Below, piece after piece: positions 3,438-13,769 of a DNA stretch of 39,371 bases. Source of the DNA: a virus; the IMG/VR virus record IMGVR_UViG_3300025769_000296, positions 1-39,371 of that record; one strand, given 5' to 3'. The notes beneath the pieces are model-generated. The model was not told the DNA's origin. It ran no database searches and was given only the letters and a program-made list of their open reading frames with translations. The number at the start of each line of letters is the position of its first letter. Position 1 is the first letter of the stretch. The translations under genes and the position numbers were made by a program.

Positions 3438-5293
3438 GACTTACCTATCTTGTATTCACCGTCCATAGGACAAAGTAACTTCAAGTCTTTACCTGCTTGT
3501 CTAATTGCTTCAACTGCTAACTGTCCGTATGTCTCAGCTAGGTCAGGTTTAACTTCAGCTTGGAACTCATCGTGTATGTTACCTACAAATGTGTACTCTC
3601 TACCGTGTGACCAACCTAAATCATTTAGTCTACGGTGTAATGTTATCAAAGCTACCTTCATAACCACAGCACCTGCTGATTGAAGTAACATATTAAGTGC
3701 AGCGTGTTCTGATCTGACTGGTAATACTCTACCATCTAGTCCTGTTAAACAAGCAGATCGTCTGACTTTCTCCTCTATCTTTAACTTTAATATCTTCAAC
3801 GCAGGTAAGTTAGACAGGAACTTCTTCTTTAAGATTGCTCCTTCCTTTGCACCACCATCTACAATCTCTCCTATCTTTGCAGGTCCAGCACCGTACAGGA
3901 ATCCATAGATGAATGTCTTTGCTTGGTCTCTAGTTTTTAAGTTAGCTGCTTTCTGATTAACCGTGTGTATGTCACCTTCTAATATATTCCTAGCGTACTG
4001 ACCCTTGTCCCAATTAGCTAGGTAATGTGCAAGCATTCTTAACTCAAGTCCACTAGCATCAACACCTACTAATACATTACCGTTAAGTGGAATGAATAAA
4101 CTTCTGCACTCCTTTCCGTACTCCGCTCTAGTAGCAGGTACTTGTGCTAAGTTAGGTTTGGAATGTGTACATCTACCTGTGACTGCACCGTTTGTATTGA
4201 CTCGTCCGTGTAGTCTCTTATCTTTAACTAATTTAAGCCACCCATTCTCGCCCTCCGCCAAAGCTCCTAGTCTTTTTACGACTAACAGATACTCTAGCAG
4301 AAGCTCGGCAGCTGGGTGGTTTATCTTTTTAAGAGTAGATTCATCCACCTTTATAGTCTTACCATCTTCACTGACAGGTATCTCATAGCCTAGTTCTTCA
4401 AAGCGTTCTTTGATTTGCTTCCTACTACCAGGGTTGAAAGGTATGACTTCCTCCTTTACATCGAGTGGTTCTGCTTTGTTAACTAAGTTCTGTACCATAC
4501 CTCTTTGTTTAAGGATAGCTTTTAACTTTACTTTAGTAGGTGCGTTAATTACTTCTACTCCATCCATGTGTTCAACAGTCAATGAGTATCCCTTCGGAGT
4601 CTTCATCTTCCTGATGGTAGGTTCAAACATAGCTTGTAGTTTATCTTGTAGCTTTGCTCTTAACAGGACTAGCTTTTGTTCTAACACTTCTGCTGCTGGT
4701 ATATCAAATCCAAACCCTGCTTGTTCTTGTAACCTGATGATGTAAGCGAACCAATGTTCTATGTCTACCATCTTCTTACTAGGTTCTTTACTTAGGAAGT
4801 GTTCGTACAAGGTCTTAGTGACAAGGACATCTCGTTCACAATACTTCTTCATCTCTTCATTGTAGCTATCCCAAGCATCTTCGTTCTCTCCGTAAGTAAG
4901 CTTTAACATCTTACCCATCCTGTGTCCCCAAGCTTTCAAGCTGTGACTACCAATCATCTTAGGATCAAAGTCCTTTCGCTTGAAGTCATCCTCTCTAAGG
5001 TCAGGGTATATACACCTACTCATTATCAATGTATCTTGTACTTGAACTAACGGAGGATAGAAGTCATACAACTTAGCTAACACAGGTAGATCAAAACCTA
5101 CGATGTTATGTCCTATGATCTTGTCAGCTTTTGCTAACATCCTTGTTCCTTCCTTTATCCCATCACCATTAAAGGTAATCATCTTACCTGCTATTGGATC
5201 GTAGATGGATAAGCAATGACAGACCTTGAGGTCACTCAGATTAGTGAAGTCCTCAATGCCATTTGTTTCTATATCAAAGAATAGTATTTTCAT
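3419..5293 (-). CDS. T7 gp5-like DNA polymerase (family A) with 3'-5' exonuclease
   Basis: This encodes 624 residues. The start is set at MKILFFDIET (ATG 5293) because the upstream 26 codons in frame lie inside the primase gene and lack conservation. Exo I is D7/E9, Exo II is GHNIVGFD (62-68), and Exo III is YCERD (151-155). Polymerase motif A is GVDASGLELRML (D412), motif B is RDQAKTFIYGFLYGAG (K459, Y463) and motif C is NIHDEFQ (H574-D575-E576). Proofreading and polymerase residues all look intact. It is about 80 residues shorter than T7 gp5, mainly in the thumb region (about 228-285), where T7 carries its thioredoxin-binding loop; processivity may not depend on host thioredoxin. It starts four bases after the primase-helicase stop. 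Confidence 0.95.
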   Translation of the reverse strand: MKILFFDIETNGIEDFTNLSDLKVCHCLSIYDPIAGKMITFNGDGIKEGTRMLAKADKIIGHNIVGFDLPVLAKLYDFYPPLVQVQDTLIMSRCIYPDLREDDFKRKDFDPKMIGSHSLKAWGHRMGKMLKLTYGENEDAWDSYNEEMKKYCERDVLVTKTLYEHFLSKEPSKKMVDIEHWFAYIIRLQEQAGFGFDIPAAEVLEQKLVLLRAKLQDKLQAMFEPTIRKMKTPKGYSLTVEHMDGVEVINAPTKVKLKAILKQRGMVQNLVNKAEPLDVKEEVIPFNPGSRKQIKERFEELGYEIPVSEDGKTIKVDESTLKKINHPAAELLLEYLLVVKRLGALAEGENGWLKLVKDKRLHGRVNTNGAVTGRCTHSKPNLAQVPATRAEYGKECRSLFIPLNGNVLVGVDASGLELRMLAHYLANWDKGQYARNILEGDIHTVNQKAANLKTRDQAKTFIYGFLYGAGPAKIGEIVDGGAKEGAILKKKFLSNLPALKILKLKIEEKVRRSACLTGLDGRVLPVRSEHAALNMLLQSAGAVVMKVALITLHRRLNDLGWSHGREYTFVGNIHDEFQAEVKPDLAETYGQLAVEAIRQAGKDLKLLCPMDGEYKIGKSWAETH

Positions 5294-5297
5294 ATTA

Positions 5298-6896
5298 TTA
5301 AAACGGATCGTTACCGTTGGTTGTTGTTGTTTTATCTTTGAATACATTCTCATCTTCCATGTACCTGCCACTGTCTTGATCGTAGTTCAAAGTAGTAGCT
5401 AGTCCAGTCTCACCTGAGAATCTATTCTTTAAGACTCTTACTTTTGTTTCGTTATTGTCTTCTTTTTGTTGGTTTCTCTCCAATCCTATTACCATATCAC
5501 TGAGTTGTGGTATCGAATGACTACCTCTCAGGTCTGATAACCTAGTGACTCCACCCTCTTCATGTCCTCCACCATTCGGTGGTCTTCTAAGGTGAGACAC
5601 TAACACCATTCCACATCCTGTCTCTTCCACTAAGCTCCTCAGTTGTGTCATCGTGTTATCAATTAACCTGCGTTCATCATCTCCTTGGATACCACTAACC
5701 ACAATAGATAGATGGTCAAGGAATATCCACTTACATCCTAATCCTTTGCACAGGTACTTGATCTTGCTTAACAAGTTATCACTCTCCGTACTTCCGAAGT
5801 GGTCATAGGTATAGAAGTTCTTGTTACCCATCGTCTCATCGAATGCTTGGCGTAACTCCTCCTCCTTCAAATCATTCTCTAAGTGCAACGGTTTATTCAG
5901 ATGAATGCCCATGATACCAAGTGCAGTTCTCCTTACCGATTCTTCCAGTGCTATGTATCCTACCGTCTCGCCAAGTCCAAGGAGATGGTGACAAACTTCA
6001 CGACAGAACAAGGACTTACCTATCCCTGATCCTGCACAAAGTGTCACCAACTCCCCTCTCCTCAGTCCGTGTGTCATGTTATTAAGTGAAGCATACGGAT
6101 AAGGCTGACATTCAGAAGTATCCTCCTTTATAACAGCTTGCCATATCTCCTCACCACTTACTATCCCATCAGGTCTGTACTCTCTAGCTTGCCACAGACA
6201 ATTCACCAACTCCTCGCTACGCTTTGCCACTAACATATCATTAGCATCCTTCAAAGGTAGTTCTGCAATGTACGCTTTACCAGGAGTCAGTAGTGCAGCA
6301 CATTTTGCTGCTCCATCTCTTCCTGGGTCATCGTTATCAAAGCAGAAGATTACCTTTTCAAAGGACTCTAACCAATCGATAGCTTGTGACACATACTTCT
6401 TTGCTCCACCTGCTCCGTTAGGTACAGATACTACAGCCCATTTGTTTCCGAAAGCTTGACTAACAGATAGTGCATCGATCTCTCCTTCACACACAACCAC
6501 TCTTCTTCCACCACTACTCCAAAGGTGCTGTCCATATAAGCCATACAGCTCTCCTTTGATTGAGAAAGTTTTGTTAGCGAATCGTAGTTTCTGTGCGACA
6601 AGTGCTCCGTTCCTACTCTTGTAGTTAGCAATGTGTACAGGTTCTCCGTTGTGCGTACCTATTTGATAGCCCCACTTCTGACAGGTCTCCTTAGTTAAGT
6701 TCCTCCTGGCAATCTCTTGTGCTTTACCTGTGAGAAAGGAGGTGTCGTTATTGGTTGTTGGTTGTGTCATAGTTTGTTGTCTGCCTCGACTGTATGTATC
6801 ACAGCTGAAACATTTTGTGCTTCCGTCTGTGTTGACTCCAAGAGCGTCACTCGATCCACACTTTGAACACTGCTGATGCGTACTAGTGAAAGCCAT
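5298..6896 (-). CDS. T7 gp4-like bifunctional primase-helicase
   Basis: This encodes 532 residues. A zinc-binding domain has Cys10-x2-Cys13 and Cys29-x2-Cys32. The Toprim core is VVVCEGEIDALS (E137, D141) with CFDNDDPGRDG (D187, D189). RecA-type hexameric helicase motifs follow: Walker A GSGIGKS (289-295), Walker B IFLDHLSIVV (391-400), then SHLRRP and LRGSHSIPQLSD. The acidic C-terminus ends in Phe, as in T7 gp4, where it contacts the polymerase. The first 130 bases overlap the endonuclease gene. Met43 (ATG at 6768-6770), just past the zinc finger, overlaps the endonuclease TGA, so a short form like T7 gp4B may be made. It unwinds DNA and primes lagging strands. Confidence 0.95.
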   Translation of the reverse strand: MAFTSTHQQCSKCGSSDALGVNTDGSTKCFSCDTYSRGRQQTMTQPTTNNDTSFLTGKAQEIARRNLTKETCQKWGYQIGTHNGEPVHIANYKSRNGALVAQKLRFANKTFSIKGELYGLYGQHLWSSGGRRVVVCEGEIDALSVSQAFGNKWAVVSVPNGAGGAKKYVSQAIDWLESFEKVIFCFDNDDPGRDGAAKCAALLTPGKAYIAELPLKDANDMLVAKRSEELVNCLWQAREYRPDGIVSGEEIWQAVIKEDTSECQPYPYASLNNMTHGLRRGELVTLCAGSGIGKSLFCREVCHHLLGLGETVGYIALEESVRRTALGIMGIHLNKPLHLENDLKEEELRQAFDETMGNKNFYTYDHFGSTESDNLLSKIKYLCKGLGCKWIFLDHLSIVVSGIQGDDERRLIDNTMTQLRSLVEETGCGMVLVSHLRRPPNGGGHEEGGVTRLSDLRGSHSIPQLSDMVIGLERNQQKEDNNETKVRVLKNRFSGETGLATTLNYDQDSGRYMEDENVFKDKTTTTNGNDPF

Positions 6897-7261
6897 GATT
6901 TTGGTATTTGTTTATGTGCATATAATATTCCTTTCTTTTCACACCACATTGCATAGGTAGTCTTACTACCCTTACGAATCTTGTTGTAAGCATTTTGAAA
7001 TAACAACCTAATATCTAAGTCAGGATGTTGTTGCTTGACTAACAGATGTTTTGTCCTGTCCTCCGTGACCCACCTCCCCTTGGTTTCAATAATGATTCCG
7101 TTGGGGAGGATGAAGTCAGGAGTGTAGGTACTTAGTTTCTTATACTCAATAACTAGTGATTCGTAAGAATACTTTATACCGTTCCGTCTGAGCTGTGATG
7201 CTATTCTCTCTTCAAATCCAGACCTAAAAGTCTGCTTTGATTTCTTCTTCGTCTTCGGCAT
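6767..7261 (-). CDS. T7 gp3-like endonuclease I (Holliday-junction resolvase)
   Basis: ATG 7261 (MPKTKKKSKQTFRSGFEERI) is chosen because T7 gp3 has a similarly short basic lead before FRSG; longer in-frame starts up to 7354 would only extend into the SSB gene. Catalytic residues are all present: Glu in RSGFEERI, Asp in TYTPDFILPNG, and Glu/Lys in IIIETKGRW. The KHLLVKQQHPDLDIRLLF and KIRKGSKTTYAMWCEKKGI segments also match the family. The family domain ends near IPKSWL (about base 6896); 43 more residues continue over the primase zinc-finger codons. It cleaves branched DNA and host DNA. The start lies inside the SSB gene (38-base overlap). Confidence 0.9.
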   Translation of the reverse strand: MPKTKKKSKQTFRSGFEERIASQLRRNGIKYSYESLVIEYKKLSTYTPDFILPNGIIIETKGRWVTEDRTKHLLVKQQHPDLDIRLLFQNAYNKIRKGSKTTYAMWCEKKGILYAHKQIPKSWLSLVRISSVQSVDRVTLLESTQTEAQNVSAVIHTVEADNKL

Positions 7262-7850
7262 CGAGTGCTTGGTCAAGTGTTTCCCCTCCGTTAACATAAC
7301 CCCCTTCAACTTCAGTAAAACCAAAGCTTTCAGCAGCTTGTTCAGATACTCCACCTTCAGCTAACTCGATAACTTGTAAAGCCATGATCTCAAGTGTGAT
7401 ACCCACTCCAAGCAACGGTGCAAACCAAACCTTCGGACGCAAGTTCAAGCGTACCTTTGAACCACCTCTTACAAGAACTGATTTATCCCAAGGGTTTCCT
7501 TTTGAATCAAACAATCCAATTGATCGAGTGTAACTAGTACCGTCCTTTCTTGTACCGTTCACTGGTTTCAACTTACTCTTTAACTTGTAAGTATCTCCAT
7601 CCAGCTCCAAAGGTAACTCGTAAGTCTTTACCTTCTTACCTAACTCCTTTGCTTTCTCAGCGTTTGCTTCCTCAAGAAGAGGTGTTAATTTAAGGATGAT
7701 TGCATCTCCTTCTTCCTTTGTTAATATAAGACCACAACTATACTCACCTTCTGGTACAAACTTTGTACTCGGTGTGTTAACCCAAGGGTAGTGTGCAGTA
7801 CCTATCGGTGTAGTGAATGCTTCCTGTTTCTCTCTCGTTTTATTCGCCAT
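7224..7850 (-). CDS. T7 gp2.5-like single-stranded DNA-binding protein
   Basis: This encodes 208 residues. It is recognised by position and by the hallmark acidic C-terminal tail ending in phenylalanine (ETLDQALDAEDEEEIKADF), which in T7 gp2.5 binds polymerase and helicase. The body contains KLRNL-type beta segments of an OB-fold (GSKVRLNLRPKVWFAP, then GVGITLEIMALQVIEL). Upstream of ATG 7850 lies a good Shine-Dalgarno stretch (AAGGAAGAG), stronger than for most genes here, fitting a protein needed in quantity. It coats ssDNA during replication and recombination. It follows RNA polymerase and overlaps the endonuclease gene. Confidence 0.85.
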   Translation of the reverse strand: MANKTREKQEAFTTPIGTAHYPWVNTPSTKFVPEGEYSCGLILTKEEGDAIILKLTPLLEEANAEKAKELGKKVKTYELPLELDGDTYKLKSKLKPVNGTRKDGTSYTRSIGLFDSKGNPWDKSVLVRGGSKVRLNLRPKVWFAPLLGVGITLEIMALQVIELAEGGVSEQAAESFGFTEVEGGYVNGGETLDQALDAEDEEEIKADF

Positions 7851-11216: not shown

Positions 11217-11800
11217 AGCTGAGAAAGTAATTGTTTCATTTCAGCACGAGTCAACGACACATTCTTACGGAATGTAATCTTCCCTCCAATGATATGATAA
11301 GGTAACTCTTCAGGTTTGATTTCTTGTTTTACTTTTTGTTGCTCAAGCCAAGACTTTTGCTCAGATAATGAACGCATAAAACCATCACCACACAACTGTT
11401 TGCATTGCTCGTATGTAGCATCAAAGAAACTAACTTCTAGGTAATCACCACCAGAGACAAGTAATTGGAAACGATCACCATTAAATATCTTATTCTGTAC
11501 GCTATAAGGTAACCTCTTTACTAAGTTTGTTTTCTTAGGATCAGACATACCACCAAGCACGAGCTTTGGGTGTATCCATTTCCTACCTAGTGCTTCTAAT
11601 TGATTCCAAGCTTTAGGTGGAACCATATCAGAAAACTCCTCCTTTAATCTCTCTCCGTAGGTGTAATCTTTCTCAATCGCTTTAACATATATTTCTCCAG
11701 CTTTCATAAAGCCATTGATTCCTTCGTGTAAAGCTTCCTTGAAGTCAGTTAATATTTTATCGTATGTGATTTCTAATTCTGCAATCATAGTAGTATTCAT
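11213..11800 (-). CDS. Early hypothetical protein (helical N-terminus)
   Basis: This encodes 195 residues. The first ~60 are helical (ITYDKILTDFKEALHEGING, FMKAGEIYVKAIEKDYTYG), followed by WNQLEALGRKWIHPKLVLGG and a mixed C-terminus ending SLTRAEMKQLLSQL. The N-terminal helix pattern (start of a long helix, then GEIYVKAI) resembles small phage proteins built around a DNA-binding four-helix segment, but this is not secure. It begins six bases after the 48-residue upstream gene; its leader contains AACAACCAAAAATAAAAAC. Translation is coupled to the next gene by ATGA. Confidence 0.65.
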   Translation of the reverse strand: MNTTMIAELEITYDKILTDFKEALHEGINGFMKAGEIYVKAIEKDYTYGERLKEEFSDMVPPKAWNQLEALGRKWIHPKLVLGGMSDPKKTNLVKRLPYSVQNKIFNGDRFQLLVSGGDYLEVSFFDATYEQCKQLCGDGFMRSLSEQKSWLEQQKVKQEIKPEELPYHIIGGKITFRKNVSLTRAEMKQLLSQL

Positions 11801-12799: not shown

Positions 12800-12870
12800 T
12801 AGTCTTTATATAAGAATCCAAGCGAGATCAAGAGAATAATTATATACATTAGTAACATCTCTAAGCTCAT
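12799..12870 (-). CDS. 23-residue single-helix membrane peptide
   Basis: The frame starts at ATG 12870 inside the methyltransferase stop (TAATG) and ends at TAA 12799, itself overlapping the next ATG (TAATG). The product is almost all hydrophobic (LLMYIIILLISLGFLY) with a short Lys-Asp end, so it is a single transmembrane helix. The double stop-start overlap is what supports translation. Function unknown; a small inner-membrane effector is possible. Confidence 0.5.
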   Translation of the reverse strand: MSLEMLLMYIIILLISLGFLYKD

Positions 12871-13769
12871 TATATTAGTTCCAGTTGTTTAGTTGTTTTT
12901 AGTTTTATTGGTTCATCTGCGTATCTCATTTCATTTAGAATGTGAGCAATAACATCGATAGTCCATCCGTTACCTAGCATCTTGAACCTTTGGGTATTAC
13001 TTACTCCTTCAGTATAATTATCTGGTACACTTTGCAATCGTTCACATTCTACAGGTGAAAGTCTACGCTTTAGTTCTTTAATGACTCCATAAGGTACTCC
13101 TTTGTACATATTAGCAGTGAGACAAGCTGACTTGCCATCTAATGGATTTGTGTGGTATTGCCATCTAGGTTTTCCGTTTCTTAATCGTGACATATAATCA
13201 ATCGCTTTATCAGACAAGTAAAACTTTTCCTCCACTTCATCTTCTAATATATCTTTTAACACAATACCTCGATCAATAGGTTGTACGACATTAGGTATAT
13301 TAGTCCAGTAAAGTCTTGGTCTATTCTGTGCAGTAAGTAAGCGAGAATTAATTGCAATAGGTTCAACTCCTAAAGTGTCGGTTATTATTTTCTCCCACTC
13401 CTTTTTCATCTTTACATTTTCAAGTAAAAAGTAGGTAGGTTTTGTCTCTTTCAGTACACGTACAAATTCCCAAAACAATTTACTCTTTCCTTCCATTCCA
13501 CTACCATCTCCAGCGTTAGAGAAAGATTGACAGGGACTGCCTCCGATTAACAAGTCTATCCTGGGCAAGTCACTACCTCTCACATCAAGTACACTTCCGA
13601 TATGTTTTGTGTTAGGATAATTCTTTTTAGCTATTTGCATAGCGTGTGGATCAATCTCACTGGCAAAGTATTTGTTAACTTTAATACCTAAAGTATCCAA
13701 AGCTAATTGACCACAGGACATTCCATCAAATAAGGATAGTACATTGTCTATTTCTAAATCGTATTTCAT
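12870..13769 (-). CDS. Orphan DNA (cytosine-5) methyltransferase
   Basis: This encodes 299 residues with the C5-methyltransferase motif order: motif I LSLFDGMSCGQLAL (11-24, SAM binding); motif IV GGSPCQSFSNAG (catalytic Cys80); motif VI FLLENVK; motif VIII LLTAQNRPRLYW; motif IX RRLSPVECERLQSVPDNYT (235-253); motif X MLGNGWTIDV. The target-recognition segment between VIII and IX is short (about 153-234), typical of phage C5 enzymes; target site unknown. No restriction endonuclease is adjacent. Early expression suggests protection of phage DNA from host restriction. A strong Shine-Dalgarno (GAGGAGG) lies inside the upstream coiled-coil gene, and ATGA couples the two. Confidence 0.92.
   Translation of the reverse strand: MKYDLEIDNVLSLFDGMSCGQLALDTLGIKVNKYFASEIDPHAMQIAKKNYPNTKHIGSVLDVRGSDLPRIDLLIGGSPCQSFSNAGDGSGMEGKSKLFWEFVRVLKETKPTYFLLENVKMKKEWEKIITDTLGVEPIAINSRLLTAQNRPRLYWTNIPNVVQPIDRGIVLKDILEDEVEEKFYLSDKAIDYMSRLRNGKPRWQYHTNPLDGKSACLTANMYKGVPYGVIKELKRRLSPVECERLQSVPDNYTEGVSNTQRFKMLGNGWTIDVIAHILNEMRYADEPIKLKTTKQLELI

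Follow-up and report, generated by a model that had tools for sequence, protein, structure and literature searches.

A retained internal start codon suggests a 4A/4B-type dual product from the primase-helicase gene of T7-like marine phages

Results

The endonuclease I/primase-helicase locus

The window, a 39,371-base virus record, carries on its minus strand the genes for SSB (7850-7224), endonuclease I, a primase-helicase and DNA polymerase, in the same order as in T7. The primase-helicase (5298..6896, minus strand; Pfam PF21268, PF13155 and PF03796; PHROG 239, 6e-188) is a full-length T7-type gp4 of 532 aa that unites a C4 zinc finger, the T7 N-terminal primase fold, a Toprim domain and a DnaB-type helicase in one protein; its nearest counterparts in the phage collection, from Roseobacter and Pelagibacter phages, are about 54% identical. 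The endonuclease I ORF, T7 gp3-like (6767..7354, minus strand; PF05367, 6e-51; PHROG 945), has two candidates for its true start, which is likely either ATG 7261 or TTG 7276. On the other side of the helicase, the open frame of the DNA polymerase extends back to GTG 5371 and overlaps the helicase end (5293-5371, minus strand); since MKILFFDIETNG, its likely start, is encoded from about 5293, the true start is probably directly after the helicase stop.

The endonuclease and helicase genes overlap by 130 nt (6767..6896, minus strand), the C-terminal tail of the endonuclease being read in the helicase +1 frame over the zinc-finger codons. The full-length helicase ATG is itself embedded in a conserved endonuclease I motif, IPKSW (TCA TGG, 6893-6898, minus strand), so that the conserved core of the endonuclease ends where the helicase starts, clade-wide. 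At the far end of the overlap the endonuclease TGA (6767..6769, minus strand) shares an ATGA with an in-frame ATG (6768..6770, minus strand), Met43 of the primase-helicase, a site at which nearly all relatives keep ATG or GTG. The ORF coordinates thus confirm what a sequence-only reading of this DNA had pointed out, namely that the endonuclease stop overlaps an in-frame ATG past the four zinc cysteines (C10, C13, C29 and C32; 6801..6869, minus strand), the last of which lies 11 codons before Met43. Initiation at this conserved codon would yield a short form of 490 aa (residues 43-532; 5298..6770, minus strand; predicted start MTQPTTNN), deprived of the zinc-binding domain and analogous to T7 gp4B. 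The internal initiation region falls in a hypervariable, A-rich linker (6738..6788, minus strand) that connects the zinc finger to the RNA-polymerase domain.

The same reading had placed a GAGG about ten bases upstream of the internal ATG; the actual separation is 13 nt (6784..6787, minus strand). Its pairing with the anti-Shine-Dalgarno (SD) at proper spacing is weak in the window (-3.1 kcal/mol), and the spacing is not conserved, the ATG being 6 nt more distant in relative L261; the GAGG is probably not the main initiation signal. The internal start of the window has no strong SD, and among relatives a strong SD is found solely where the start is GTG. Elsewhere in the window, many genes lack an SD, including the full-length helicase, and others have a very strong one, as if two initiation modes coexisted. 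A DNA methyltransferase gene with a strong SD (PHROG 116; 12870-13769, minus strand) is located upstream of the genes for RNA polymerase and replication.

Retention of a start codon in the linker

Any helicase-frame ATG that is followed by A automatically reads as TGA one frame over (+1). A single ATGA is therefore unremarkable, and one at an internal Met calls for no explanation once the +1 frame is open; what matters is if relatives retain the internal start. We collected 583 loci from IMG/VR and phage records and clustered their helicases at 95%, which gave 33 lineages whose helicase is at least 58% identical to that of the window. The linker was taken to run from the zinc finger to the conserved F-[ILV]-x-G motif, and expected counts were derived from codon usage in the remainder of the helicase gene. 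Nearly every one of the 33 lineages has a linker of its own in length and sequence, a region that is hypervariable, indel-rich and hardly alignable. It usually holds exactly one ATG or GTG, and at least one is present in 32 of the 33 lineages (ATG in 23, GTG in 9) against 15.3 expected (P = 2.5e-10), in 14 of 15 after clustering at 85% (6.8 expected, P = 1e-4) and in 5 of 6 at 75% (2.5 expected, P = 0.046), P-values that overstate independence because the lineages are related. The exception is L546, whose linker contains neither codon. All 64 distinct sequences with at least 84% identity to the window have ATG or GTG in the linker.

The constraint bears on start codons rather than hydrophobic residues, given that ATG and GTG make up 33 of the 56 M/V/I/L codons of the linker compared with 512 of 3499 outside it (P = 5e-14). 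As a control, the variable C-terminal tail of the helicase, treated in the same way, showed no excess (15/31, 14.9 expected). A looser first boundary of the linker gave a weaker excess (32, 17.6 expected) because it included the conserved F-I-x-G motif. A test of the density of start-plus-SD combinations in the linker relative to the gene remainder was not clear in the window clade at 90% clustering and was replaced by the start-codon retention test. What goes beyond chance, as far as these comparisons indicate, is the retention of ATG or GTG in the linker across relatives and not the ATGA itself. An internal start is thus conserved between the zinc domain and the RNA-polymerase domain, at the position characteristic of the 4A/4B arrangement, and the comparison strongly supports it as an ancient feature that selection has maintained in this phage group.

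Changes at the site were followed on a tree of the lineages built without the zinc finger and linker. Start presence changes once (the loss in L546), ATG and GTG interchange at least seven times, and the SD state changes six times. An SD is present at GTG sites in 7 of 9 lineages versus none of the 23 with ATG (Fisher, 1e-5), while tree-independent pairs (three in the same direction, none opposite, one without difference) are too few and the association is not significant on them. The two GTG lineages devoid of an SD, L437 and L445, both have GTGA shared with the endonuclease stop. In L566, L047 and L262, ATG is lost and replaced by GTG with a strong SD; this compensation among close relatives argues for function. 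Loss of the ATG in close relatives, which the sequence-only reading would have counted against its proposal, thus gives a mixed answer, and its 4B-type internal start is strongly supported by the relatives.

The start region also folds less stably than other in-frame ATG/GTG codons (-1.6 vs -6.0 kcal/mol) and is more accessible (0.66 vs 0.39), a comparison that is confounded because polar, A-rich linker sequence would be weakly structured in any case. Synonymous choice is less exposed to this confounding by linker composition: in the 58-68% identity group, 55 of the 65 Lys, Gln and Glu codons preceding the start have A at the third position, compared with 839 of 1606 in the remainder of the gene (P = 9e-8).

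Overlap of endonuclease I with the helicase gene

Among the lineages with 58-68% identity, the endonuclease mostly ends within the zinc-finger codons, at -29 to -41 nt when counted from where the last Cys codon ends; its stop lies about 55-92 nt upstream of the internal start, which is still kept. In L511 and L512 it ends at +10 from the same point. The endonuclease frame reaches the linker only in the clade with at least 84% identity and, separately, in L437 and L445, which requires two changes on the tree. Within the clade, the endonuclease stop of all 64 distinct sequences lies in a range from 23 nt upstream to 1 nt downstream of the start's first base. Of these sequences, 37 form ATGA or GTGA, 4 form TAATG or TAGTG, and in the remaining 23 the stop lies 5-23 nt before it.

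Two observations bear on the origin of this extension. Divergence at helicase fourfold sites is 0.126 inside the overlap versus 0.418 downstream, and 8 of the 11 lineages of the clade have a +1 frame that stays open across the zinc finger, versus 1.4 expected from synonymous shuffles. Together they imply that the extension is selected, and the overlap is genuinely dual-coding; the selected cause could be either the tail protein or coupling. The endonuclease was modelled with AlphaFold to assess disorder of the overlapping tail, and the model was too poor to be informative (mean pLDDT 44.9). The start is directly followed by A in 10 of the 11 lineages of the clade and in both L437 and L445, compared with 3 of 19 in the remainder, an association with endonuclease reach for which the tree provides two independent pairs only, too few to give a tree-based test any power.

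In the window, the ATGA brings stop and start as close as in a termination-reinitiation pair, and within the clade the two shift together; sister lineages keep the start with no stop nearby. Since the start persists where the endonuclease stops earlier, it is independent of the overlap, and coupling would be a derived and secondary feature. The idea from the sequence-only reading that coupling to the upstream gene drives the start is therefore supported in part only: it agrees with the stop/start proximity of all 64 clade sequences and not with the sister lineages, in which the start stands without the overlap.

Other phage groups

In cyanophage S-CBP-type helicases (L353-L432), an ATG is found in the linker of 49 of 50 lineages (9.9 expected), with no Shine-Dalgarno, and it is kept despite indels immediately upstream; the linker is the same one as in the window group, but the endonuclease overlap is absent at that point. 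The excess of linker starts is weaker in pelagiphages (7/11, 2.8 expected) and lacking in roseophage CRP-type helicases (26/43, 22.1 expected), suggesting that the feature is widespread and not universal. Start presence alone is uninformative in the T7 and CRP groups. In T7 relatives, the combination of a strong SD and a start is what marks the linker, with 10 of 541 linker codons vs 4 of 5833 elsewhere at -8 kcal/mol. The T7 4B ATG (11754) also overlaps a stop, the TGA of gene 4.1 (11755-11757), as ATGA. We considered gene 4.1 (L085, 1836-1958) as a selected ORF and rejected it: the +1 frame is open in 10 cases in the T7 group, the expectation from synonymous shuffles being 9.5, and gene 4.1 thus looks like a by-product and not a gene. 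The open-access literature, to which our survey was confined, provided the facts on T7 4A/4B and no report of an internal start in marine relatives.

Discussion

We propose that the primase-helicase gene of this phage yields two in-frame products, like T7 gene 4: the full-length primase-helicase from ATG 6896 and a 490-residue form, presumably a helicase only, from ATG 6770. The internal start would work either through an A-rich unstructured leader and an ATG or through a Shine-Dalgarno and a GTG, the window phage relying on direct initiation at ATG 6770 in an A-rich leader. In the clade of the window, the endonuclease I frame would have been secondarily lengthened through the zinc-finger codons so as to end on or just before the internal start; from that position, ribosomes completing the endonuclease are probably able to reinitiate at the internal start, adding to the synthesis of the short form. 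Taken as a whole (dual product, secondary extension and probable reinitiation), this is our best explanation and a likely one. Its parts do not stand equally: we are quite confident, from the comparison of relatives, that a short form exists, while the chances that coupling makes a real contribution are about even. It is also conceivable that marine T7-like phages have reshaped the 4B start, with termination-reinitiation from the overlapping endonuclease I gene setting the ratio of primase-helicase to helicase-only form and the dual-coded overlap selected to link production of the helicase-only form to that of the endonuclease, a suggestion that we put forward only tentatively.

The most serious alternative accepts the internal start and regards the overlap as incidental: initiation would be independent, and the endonuclease frame, once deprived of its former stop, would simply run to the first stop in the +1 frame, which ATG plus A supplies automatically, with no coupling. 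The sister lineages whose endonuclease ends some 55-92 nt upstream of a start that they keep fit this reading, as do the 23 of the 64 close relatives with a non-overlapping stop and the T7 gene 4.1/4B ATGA, which exists with a +1 frame open by composition only. Against it, both the excess openness of the +1 frame and the constrained fourfold sites mark the extension as selected, and the A after the start accompanies the overlap in the clade and in L437 and L445 far more than in the remaining lineages. The alternative survives if the tail protein is what is selected, and we give it a substantial probability, somewhat below even.

A second possibility is that there is no short form, Met43 being an ordinary residue of a low-complexity linker and the ATGA a product of chance. 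Start-like Met/Val codons are indeed common, at about 3% of codons, and L546 does without any in its linker; however, retention at roughly twice the expected frequency that is specific to ATG and GTG codons, with a control region at expectation, and the switching between ATG and GTG with SD compensation make this unlikely. Finally, Met43 could be the main start, with the upstream zinc-finger stretch little used and the +1 endonuclease frame the chief reading there, as the position of ATG 6896 inside the endonuclease gene and its want of an SD (+2.4 kcal/mol) might suggest, but this is very improbable given that the C4 zinc finger is conserved, including in relatives whose endonuclease stops earlier, that the full-length start, like the internal one, lies in accessible, A-rich sequence, and that many other genes of the window phage likewise have no SD.

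The generality of the T7 4A/4B pair among T7-like phages has so far been unclear. Across these marine phages it is the start codon and not the amino acid that is kept in a freely changing linker, which suggests that natural phages benefit from retaining a short helicase. The natural variants of the clade (ATG without SD, GTG with SD, with or without endonuclease overlap) further make the initiation mechanism directly testable.

The dual product itself is not unprecedented. T7 gene 4 is also initiated at codon 64, producing a 56-kDa protein that lacks the ZBD, acts as a helicase but does not synthesize primers, and is equimolar with the 63-kDa form (PMC9198812), and the M64L substitution prevents the formation of gp4B (PMC12658067). 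The comparison of relatives gives good support for extending this arrangement, known in T7, to marine phages. The likeness is close: a homologous helicase with a C4 zinc finger, an in-frame internal start directly after the zinc domain, and a +1-frame ORF (gene 4.1 in T7) that ends on this start as ATGA. There are also key differences: (i), T7 has a strong SD (GGAGG) whereas the window has no good one, a strong SD being true of T7 and its near kin while a dual product as such does not need one; (ii), the T7 +1 frame is open by composition alone and no essential gene ends there, whereas that of the window is the conserved endonuclease I gene, apparently held open by selection. The sequence-only reading had called the arrangement different from that of T7, which overstates the case as far as the ATGA is concerned and holds for the selected, conserved gene in the +1 frame. 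In one clade the arrangement is varied in that the upstream endonuclease gene ends at the internal start, a variant that is apparently new and well supported by the sequences. For such a junction, overlapping cellular gene pairs offer a second precedent, with strict translational coupling in 13 of the 14 tested (PMC6728339). These ATGA- and TAATG-type pairs resemble the present case in their stop-start overlap of 4 nt or 1 nt and in having the upstream gene in another frame; in contrast to them, the downstream start of the window is internal to a longer gene that begins 126 nt upstream, so that coupling would here set the ratio of two isoforms and not tie together two separate genes.
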